Origin: Allostella vacuolata
Lineage (GTDB): Bacteria; Pseudomonadota; Alphaproteobacteria; ATCC43930; Allostellaceae
Assembly (NCBI GenBank): GCA_006739055.1
Contig: AP019702.1
Span: forward strand, 2,629,388-2,693,387
Length of the DNA: 64,000 nucleotides
Reading direction: 5' to 3'
Part shown: positions 59,565-61,538 of the stretch, one piece after another
How the letters are laid out: every line of letters starts with the position of its first letter
Position numbering within the stretch: the first letter of the stretch is position 1
The notes under the pieces: generated by a model
Database searches by the model: none
What the model saw: only the letters and a program-made list of their open reading frames with translations
What the model was told of the DNA's origin: nothing
Translations under genes and position numbers: made by a program

Positions 59565-61538
59565 TCATTCTCCAGGACGCCCGCCCCGGCGACGTGGAAT
59601 GGCGCCCCGCCCGGCAGGACATAACCATCCTCCCCGGCCGAGGGTGGGCGATTGCCAGCGGGCGGCGGCCGGCTCGGGCGGCTTCCGCGGCGGCGGCGGC
59701 GGCGGCGGCAAAGCCGGACAGAACGGCAGCGGCGTCAGCTTCAATGGCGGCAATGGTGGCGATGCCTGGCAGGCGGGCGGCGGCGGTGGCGGCGGCAGCG
59801 GGTTCTGGAGGACGAAGTCATCGGCCGTCAGGTCGCGGGCGATGTTCTTCACCAGGATGGTGACCTGCTTGCCTGCCTCATCGGTGAACAGGATGCTGCG
59901 GTCGGCGCCGTCGGCCTGCTGGTCGGCGATGTATTGGTCGCGAGCCGTCTCGTCGATGCCGACATCGCCGACTGTGAGGTGCAGCTTGTCGCCCGAGAAG
60001 TCCCAGATGCGATCCAGGTCCGCCGCCCCGGCGTCCTCCAGATCGAAGAAGAAGGTGTCGATGCCGCCCATCCCGACCAGTTCGTCGGAGCCGCCGCCGC
60101 CGTCGATGACGTCGGCACCCGCGCCCGTGGCGGCGAAGTCATTGCCGGAGAAGACGCCCAGGATCGTGTCGACCCCGGTCGAGAGGATGAAGGCGATGGC
60201 AAACGCCGTCTCCGTCGGGTCGGTGAACACGTGGATGTTGCCATCGCCATCGGCGCCGTCCGTCGCGGAGCCGTCGACATTGGCGGTTCCGCCGGTCCCA
60301 CCATGGCCGGCCGAGCCGAGGCCGGCTCCACCGCCGCCGCCCCCGCCGCCATAGCCGGGGTCGGGGAAGCCGTCGGCGCCGCCGCTCCCAGGCGTGGCGG
60401 TGCCGAGGCCGCCGCCGCCGGCGCCGCCGTCCGCCGCGTTCCCTGCCGTGCCGAGAAACCAGCCGCCGCCGCCGTTGCCCGCCGTCAGGTTCCATGTCGG
60501 ATCGTTGGTGAAGGCGCCACCGCCACCGCCGCCGCCCGCCTGCCAGGCATCGCCACCATTGCCGCCATTGAAGCTGACGCCGCTGCCGTTCTGTCCGGCT
60601 TTGCCGCCGCCGCCGCCGCCGCCGCGGAAGCCGCCCGAGCCGGCCGCCGTCGTGTAGCCACCGCTCAGCGTATCCTCGACGCTGACCTGGCTGTAGCCGC
60701 CGCCGAATCCGTCGCCGAAGATGATGTCGTTGCCGTCTCCGCCGCGCAGCACGTCGTCGCCGCCGCCACCGGCGCCGCCGGGCGTCCTCAGGCTGGTACT
60801 GTGCGTATGGTAGGCGCCACCGCCGCCGCCGGCGCCATCGCCGAAGATGAGGTCATCCCCTGTCGATCCCGTGACGGTGGAGGCGCCGCCACCGCCGTCG
60901 CCGCCCGTTCCGGCATTGGTGAACGACCCCTGGCCGCCGCCGCCGCCGCCGCCGCCGCCGGCGATGATGATCTCCCCGGTTGCCGTCGTGGCCGTGTAGC
61001 TGTTGCCCACGATCTCGGCGAGCACATGGGGGTAGGCGGGTGCTTCGAGCGATCGCGGCACGAAGGGGCTGGTGGCGTATTCCAGCACCCAGTTGCCGTC
61101 CCCTCCGGTATCGTCGACGGAAGCGGCGACCGGCACCTCGAGGATGCCGGCCAGGGCGTCGACCAGCGCCACCCCCTGGGGCGAGCCGGCGATCGAGCAG
61201 CCATAGAGCAGGACCTGGCCGCCGGGCCGGCTGGCCCGGCCTATCGCCGCCAGGGAGGCGCGATGGTGCTGGAGCGTGGCCCAGGCAATGCGGGCCGAGC
61301 CGAGCCTGGCCAGGCCGGGCGCGCCGTGCGCCAGCACATGCAGGGCATCGTACCCGGGTCGGTCGGCGATCCACTCCGCAAGGCGGGCGAGCCCGTCCTC
61401 GTCGGGGCCGACCAGCAGGATCTCCGCTCCGTCCGGTGCGGCGGCGACCAACAGCGGCCAGTCGGCGAGGGCCGTGTCGATTACGACGAGGTCGCGGCCG
61501 GCGGTCCGGATGGTGACGTCGGATCTGGCTTCGGGCAC
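59565..61538 (-). CDS. DUF4347 and glycine-rich N-terminal part of a secreted RTX-type protein
   Basis: A 657-aa open frame starting at GTG 61538 with AAGGAG upstream. Residues 1-180 are a DUF4347 domain (LHVLAHGAPGLARLG, GGQVLLYGCSIAGSPQGVALVDAL, VPVAASVDDTGG), typical of large type I-secreted adhesins. Glycine tracts and RTX-like repeats (STGDDLIFGDG, GGDGNDIIFGDG) follow, then a calcium-binding DUF-like block (SGNDFAATGAGADVIDGGG, DDFVLQNP). After DDFVLQNP the frame reads antisense through the inverted copy of its own glycine-rich segment (PPPPPP...), which looks like an insertion artefact of the 130-bp repeat. See the repeat features. Confidence 0.82.
   Translation of the reverse strand: MPEARSDVTIRTAGRDLVVIDTALADWPLLVAAAPDGAEILLVGPDEDGLARLAEWIADRPGYDALHVLAHGAPGLARLGSARIAWATLQHHRASLAAIGRASRPGGQVLLYGCSIAGSPQGVALVDALAGILEVPVAASVDDTGGDGNWVLEYATSPFVPRSLEAPAYPHVLAEIVGNSYTATTATGEIIIAGGGGGGGGGQGSFTNAGTGGDGGGGASTVTGSTGDDLIFGDGAGGGGGAYHTHSTSLRTPGGAGGGGDDVLRGGDGNDIIFGDGFGGGYSQVSVEDTLSGGYTTAAGSGGFRGGGGGGGKAGQNGSGVSFNGGNGGDAWQAGGGGGGGAFTNDPTWNLTAGNGGGGWFLGTAGNAADGGAGGGGLGTATPGSGGADGFPDPGYGGGGGGGGAGLGSAGHGGTGGTANVDGSATDGADGDGNIHVFTDPTETAFAIAFILSTGVDTILGVFSGNDFAATGAGADVIDGGGGSDELVGMGGIDTFFFDLEDAGAADLDRIWDFSGDKLHLTVGDVGIDETARDQYIADQQADGADRSILFTDEAGKQVTILVKNIARDLTADDFVLQNPLPPPPPPPACQASPPLPPLKLTPLPFCPALPPPPPPPRKPPEPAAARWQSPTLGRGGWLCPAGRGAIPRRRGGRPGE
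59663..59792 (+). repeat. 130-bp inverted repeat, copy A (disrupting copy)
   Basis: Identical to the reverse complement of 60520-60649 at every base I compared, including a (CGG)7 run. Flanking bases diverge immediately at both ends. It sits between the proline linker PLPP and PPAGNRPP of the RTX-type protein and contains the stop that separates the two frames. Confidence 0.9.
60520..60649 (-). repeat. 130-bp inverted repeat, copy B (native coding copy)
   Basis: On the minus strand this encodes the glycine-rich stretch GSGGFRGGGGGGGKAGQ...FNGGNGGDAWQAGGGG in frame with the DUF4347 protein. Because it makes sense as coding sequence while copy A does not, copy B is the probable donor. The spacer between arms is 727 bp. 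Confidence 0.9.

Follow-up and report, generated by a model that had tools for sequence, protein, structure and literature searches.

Two open reading frames that adjoin each other on the minus strand of the window, the whole stretch of 64,000 nucleotides analysed here (G000:C1:2629388-2693387), meet at one arm of a long perfect inverted repeat. This arrangement raises the question of whether they are two separate genes or the halves of a single gene broken by an inverted insertion and, in the latter case, when and how the insertion arose. The features on which the answer depends are the following, with those that are compared to the gene of a same-genus relative (genome G002) marked as such:

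59565..61538, minus strand: front open reading frame of 657 aa with a GTG start, composed of DUF4347, a glycine-rich region and an out-of-frame tail from copy A on
58631..59662, minus strand: back half, with a Big_9/cadherin-like domain, RTX nonapeptide repeats and a C-terminal tail (domain profiles and homology to G002)
59663..59792, plus strand: copy A, 130 bp, the inserted inverted copy of copy B (exact reverse complement, missing from the syntenic G002 gene)
60520..60649, minus strand: copy B, coding sequence original to the glycine-rich region (G002 aligns at the corresponding position)
59793..60519, minus strand: spacer of 727 bp, coding in the gene frame (minus frame 1 is open)
59735-59737 and 59741-59743, minus strand: two stop codons that the back-half frame meets within copy A (frame translation)
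61677..63784, minus strand: upstream neighbours, a response regulator with Trans_reg_C and a histidine kinase (domain profiles)
56299..57282, plus strand: enolase-superfamily gene on the other side of the broken gene (90% identical in G002)

Direct comparison of the arms bears out the exact 130-bp inverted duplication with a 727-bp spacer that a first-pass annotation of this DNA had reported. Positions 59663-59792 and 60520-60649 are exact reverse complements (130 out of 130 identical), separated by 727 bp, and the match is maximal, as it cannot be extended by even one base on either side. When mismatches are tolerated, the pairing of the two copies spans 152 nt at 94%. We scanned 528,617 bp, composed of the window and 26 stretches of the same genome (9% of the genome, which is a single contig of 5,834,761 bases, 99.65% complete), for perfectly inverted arms that are 24 bp or longer and lie within 5 kb of each other. 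There were four such pairs, of 130, 29, 29 and 28 bp. The 130-bp pair is not due to chance. The same scan returned a dispersed inverted element, perhaps REP-like, with arms of 28-29 bp (GCGTCCCTCGACTTCGCTCGGGATGAGG and a variant) spaced by 42-44 bp, in three of the 26 sampled stretches:

L071:7475-7574: dispersed inverted element
L068:3390-3491: dispersed inverted element
L079:10094-10192: dispersed inverted element

On the minus strand, the broken gene begins with the GTG at 61538 and ends at 58631. The distance between this start and the near edge of copy A is 1746 nt and that between the other edge and 58631 is 1032 nt, stop included, both multiples of three. The insert measures 130 bp, or 3 x 43 + 1, so the frame is shifted and the two halves lie in different frames. 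The earlier calculation that removal of copy A gives one frame of 926 codons is arithmetically right, with the stop counted. Read in the gene frame, copy B gives AAGSGGFRGGGGGGGKAGQNGSGVSFNGG..., which resembles the gene of the relative and agrees with the earlier description of this copy as sensible coding sequence. The companion description of copy A, as sequence that makes no coding sense and ends the downstream frame, agrees with the two stop codons that occur within it in the frame of the back half. The frame that enters from the front stays open through a proline-rich translation of copy A and ends at 59565, after 657 aa.

Domain profiles assign DUF4347 (PF14252, E 1.4e-34) to the front part (59793-61538, 582 codons), and both a bacterial Ig/cadherin-like domain, Big_9 (E 2.5e-19), and RTX nonapeptide repeats (E 1.5e-26) to the back half (58631-59662). 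The same order of domains, over the two halves, is that of the DUF4347 / bacterial Ig / RTX proteins (PF14252, PF17963, PF00353), as in G002; here, in contrast, the set is split. These domains suggest the label of adhesin, and the original product was probably a surface protein. The product of the front open reading frame has neither the cadherin-like domain nor the RTX repeats, nor the C-terminal tail resembling the tails of paralogues (several of which end in ...QLSADDFAIV, similar to the ...ALSAADFEVV of the back half). Since these parts are lost, the broken gene is probably inactive. The loss of the 343-residue back half with its RTX repeats suggests that no functional product is made; in particular, the lost C-terminal end is likely to matter for export, and the front product would then not be exported.

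We compared the locus with those of the same genus, using four genomes including its own (G000, G001, G002 and G003). An orthologue is present in one of the other three, the complete genome G002, at approximately 70% DNA identity, and G001 and G003 return weaker paralogue matches only. The G002 orthologue is one open frame of 1042 codons from stop to stop, and a profile scan of its 935-aa translation, whose start is approximate, identifies DUF4347, Big_9/cadherin and RTX in this order. Identity to the G002 protein is 62% for the front half (356 out of 575 residues) and, in the C-terminal part of that protein, 56% for the back half (192 out of 342). The two halves are thus homologous to one protein that the relative keeps in a single frame, as is to be seen in an interrupted DUF4347-RTX gene. 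The histidine kinase (61% identical to its G002 counterpart) and the enolase-superfamily gene also flank the G002 gene, and the neighbourhood is therefore shared. In the window, a gene with TPR repeats (57263-58624) separates the broken gene from the enolase-superfamily gene; in G002 (L029) the enolase-superfamily frame directly adjoins the orthologue, with no TPR gene in between.

The G002 gene contains copy B and does not contain copy A. The flanks of the insertion point are 170 bp apart in G002 and 297 bp apart in the window, and when searched against G002 the sequence at copy A matches only the position of copy B, in the opposite orientation and at 83%. Between the landmarks ...DF and NR..., the linker has 11 residues in G002 and 10 in the window once the insert is removed. 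Because G002 has copy B without copy A, copy B is the ancestral sequence and copy A the newcomer. The alignment to homologues that the first-pass annotation had proposed as a check thus returns a single frame with copy B only, and its reading of copy A as an insertion that split a formerly single frame is upheld by a syntenic gene.

At the level of the class, we searched 289 genomes with the 169-aa stretch encoded by 59793-60299. This returned 38 matched genomes including its own, the best of the others at E 1.3e-8, and we base no conclusion about the junction on these matches. Scans of wider genome contigs gave no loci in one scan and two in the other, from Azospirillum sp. B4 and a Rhodocyclaceae MAG. 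Both match the DUF4347 region only; their open reading frames look different beyond it, although each runs off the compared DNA.

These comparisons bear directly on the possibility that the frames are two separate functional genes and that the inverted repeat is an old feature of the locus. The back half does contain an open reading frame of 301 aa that begins with an ATG. This codon, at 59536, is the earliest ATG, GTG or TTG of the back half, and it falls inside the Big_9 match (back-half residues 4-96). Translation from there would skip 42 codons at the beginning of the back half and cut into the domain. In G002, moreover, one frame runs across both halves, and identical arms are not what an old repeat would show. 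We consider the existence of two genes nearly untenable.

The same relative gives an indication of when the break occurred. Compared to G002, dN/dS is 0.40 in the front half (581 codons) and 0.41 in the back half (330 codons); dS is approximately 0.78, and these ratios are therefore rough. Similar values in the two halves suggest that the back half remained under coding constraint during most of the period since its divergence from G002. The arms differ at none of their 130 sites (95% upper bound of 2.3%), whereas 27 of the 126 codon-aligned bases of copy B are different in G002. The break looks recent because dN/dS is about alike in both halves and the copies are identical. On these rough figures the insertion would have occurred late on this branch, unless gene conversion kept the arms identical; such conversion from one arm to the other could lead its age to be underestimated. 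The earlier proposal of a recent loss-of-function event gains support from the single frame in G002, the like dN/dS of the halves and the identity of the arms.

Perfect inverted arms of 130 bp could recombine, and invertons lying within genes have reportedly been described. The locus might then be a phase-variable module, in which the protein is switched on and off through inversion of the spacer by the arms or through gain and loss of copy A. We followed the frame that leaves copy B into a flipped spacer. It enters plus frame 1 of the spacer, where a single stop occurs at 60352-60354. Given this stop in the flipped state and the broken frame in the present one, neither orientation yields the full protein, and the inversion-based phase variation suggested in the first-pass annotation finds no support. 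G002 is without copy A, and no invertase occurs among the four profiled neighbours in the window (the TPR gene, the enolase-superfamily gene, the histidine kinase and the response regulator). A direct repeat, CAGCGGG, flanks copy A, with its two occurrences 140 bp apart. We rejected slippage between them as a route of reversal, since 140 is 2 modulo 3 and the phase would not be restored. The locus resembles the intragenic invertons that Chanin et al. 2024 are said to have described in having inverted repeats inside a bacterial coding gene; it differs in that no orientation leaves the full frame open through recombination of the arms and in the lack of an invertase among the four neighbours profiled. 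A switch of this type is very improbable.

Another possibility is that the break exists in the assembly and not in the cell, as could happen if an assembler, gap-filler or polisher had placed a reversed piece of copy B in the GC-rich proline linker. The insertion site is indeed a GC-rich region of low complexity, and another paralogue in the same assembly has a frame break in the repeat array of its linker. Several features of the assembly and of the insert argue against this. The genome is a single contig with 99.65% completeness, and the 528,617 bp scanned hold no second perfect inverted pair longer than 29 bp within 5 kb. We inspected by eye the printout of the junctions and found that the insertion site and the insert edges overlap by 4 bp (CGGC) on one side and by 2 bp (GG) on the other, which is little for an assembler to have followed as an overlap or k-mer path, provided that the displayed flanks are correct. 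In the middle of the insert, 65 bases are 65% GC and do not form a GGC run. As to the edges, the first-pass annotation had placed both ends of the copy in GGC/GCC runs; this is correct for the end at 59792 and less so for that at 59663. An assembly error is unlikely.

We regard it as probable that the gene was recently inactivated by a one-off insertion through template switching. During replication or repair, the growing strand would have left its template at the proline-rich linker (59662/59793) and switched to the template of opposite orientation at copy B. It would have copied 130 bases backwards and then returned to the linker, leaving behind the inverted copy A. The insert of 3n+1 length would have shifted the frame, so that the 657 aa of the front open reading frame now comprise DUF4347, the glycine-rich region and an altered tail. 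Polymerase template switching is a plausible cause, and the junction overlaps of 4 bp and 2 bp fit switching guided by microhomology. The insert is explained in full by copy B, and a mobile element is therefore not favoured as its source.

In E. coli, according to the excerpt of PMC7202029, it is established that template switching occurs at inverted repeats. The four-point template-switch model, as the excerpt of PMC7954356 presents it, produces a reverse-complement fragment and often perfect inverted repeats. In both that model and the present locus, a local segment reappears nearby as its reverse complement, often in a perfect inverted repeat; the model was applied to great apes in the excerpted text, whereas here the host is a bacterium and the 130 bp come from 727 bp away. 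The locus shows the features that the model describes, with 130 out of 130 bases in reverse complement at a distance of 727 bp, flanks that are continuous with G002 and a linker that agrees within one codon. The ancestral state without the copy is seen in G002, one relative at approximately 70% DNA identity.

A bacterial counterpart is the class of quasipalindrome-associated E. coli mutations. In the excerpt of PMC7202029 these resemble the present case in that the polymerase switches to an inverted template and the frame changes. They perfect a pre-existing imperfect inverted repeat, whereas any arm that existed beforehand at the present site would have been weak at most. When we compared the G002 linker with the reverse-complemented copy B region of that gene, the best ungapped score was 15, matched by 4 of 200 single-base shuffles, and the longest exact match was 8 bp, equalled in 93 of 200. 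The G002 gene contains no perfect inverted pair of at least 14 bp. The E. coli reporters of that excerpt carry an 18-bp quasipalindrome, and both the copied length and the distance are larger at the present locus. Protein genes of Nematomorpha mitochondria contain perfect inverted repeats of comparable length or longer (up to 284 bp; excerpt of PMC6649704); there the repeats are many and both arms are coding, whereas here there is one and the frame is broken. Among the matches listed from the literature, as far as the excerpts of these papers go, we noticed no case of an insertion of such a size disrupting a bacterial gene.

The same end result would follow if a 130-bp fragment of the gene had been captured by end joining at a double-strand break. 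Its footprint would be identical to that of template switching, and the short overlaps at the junctions fit it equally well. Capture requires, however, that a separate 130-bp fragment be made and kept, whereas the template-switch model, in the excerpt of PMC7954356, describes a source that is nearby and oppositely oriented. We hold end joining to be distinctly unlikely.

Template switching at this locus would be a new instance of an already known type of mutation and would involve no new mechanism. The locus offers a clean case of a fairly long, inverted, template-switch-like insertion that disrupts a bacterial coding gene, in which the sister gene is whole, selection on the two halves is alike and the arms show zero divergence. 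For annotators, it means that a single broken gene can appear as adjacent open reading frame fragments around inverted repeats.

To set the broken gene within its family, we collected the matches to a query that spans the junction. Its own genome returned 11 in addition to those of the two halves (13 in total). The open frames of nine of the 11 measure 837-1410 aa; the other two are short (396 and 334 aa). Four paralogue matches, one each in G000, G001, G002 and G003, span both sides of the junction in one open frame, and a single frame across the junction is the rule among the paralogues visible here. In the 396-aa paralogue, whose front repeats we take to be FG-GAP-like, the front half and the cadherin/RTX back half are in different frames, and the point where these meet is a hexamer array of the proline-rich linker:

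L057:19900-19956 (G000:C1:2713287-2713343): (GGTGGA)n array of 9.8 copies with irregular units, in the linker of the 396-aa paralogue

This frame break may be due to slippage or to an assembly indel. Two family members of the same genome, the broken gene and this paralogue, have thus lost the frame at the linker. One could propose that the proline-rich linker of the RTX family is a mutational hotspot and that members are repeatedly silenced by template-switch insertions and repeat slippage. If this were true, a linker hotspot made of GC-rich triplet and hexamer repeats would lead to diversity in a set of exposed proteins; we judge it highly doubtful. The 334-aa paralogue (L059:2716-3717, G000:C1:3330715-3331716) loses its frame within the RTX repeats, and four longer paralogues follow it in a row. 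At L057:17027-18590, a long tandem array with units of approximately 228 bp (or 450 bp) lies inside a family paralogue.
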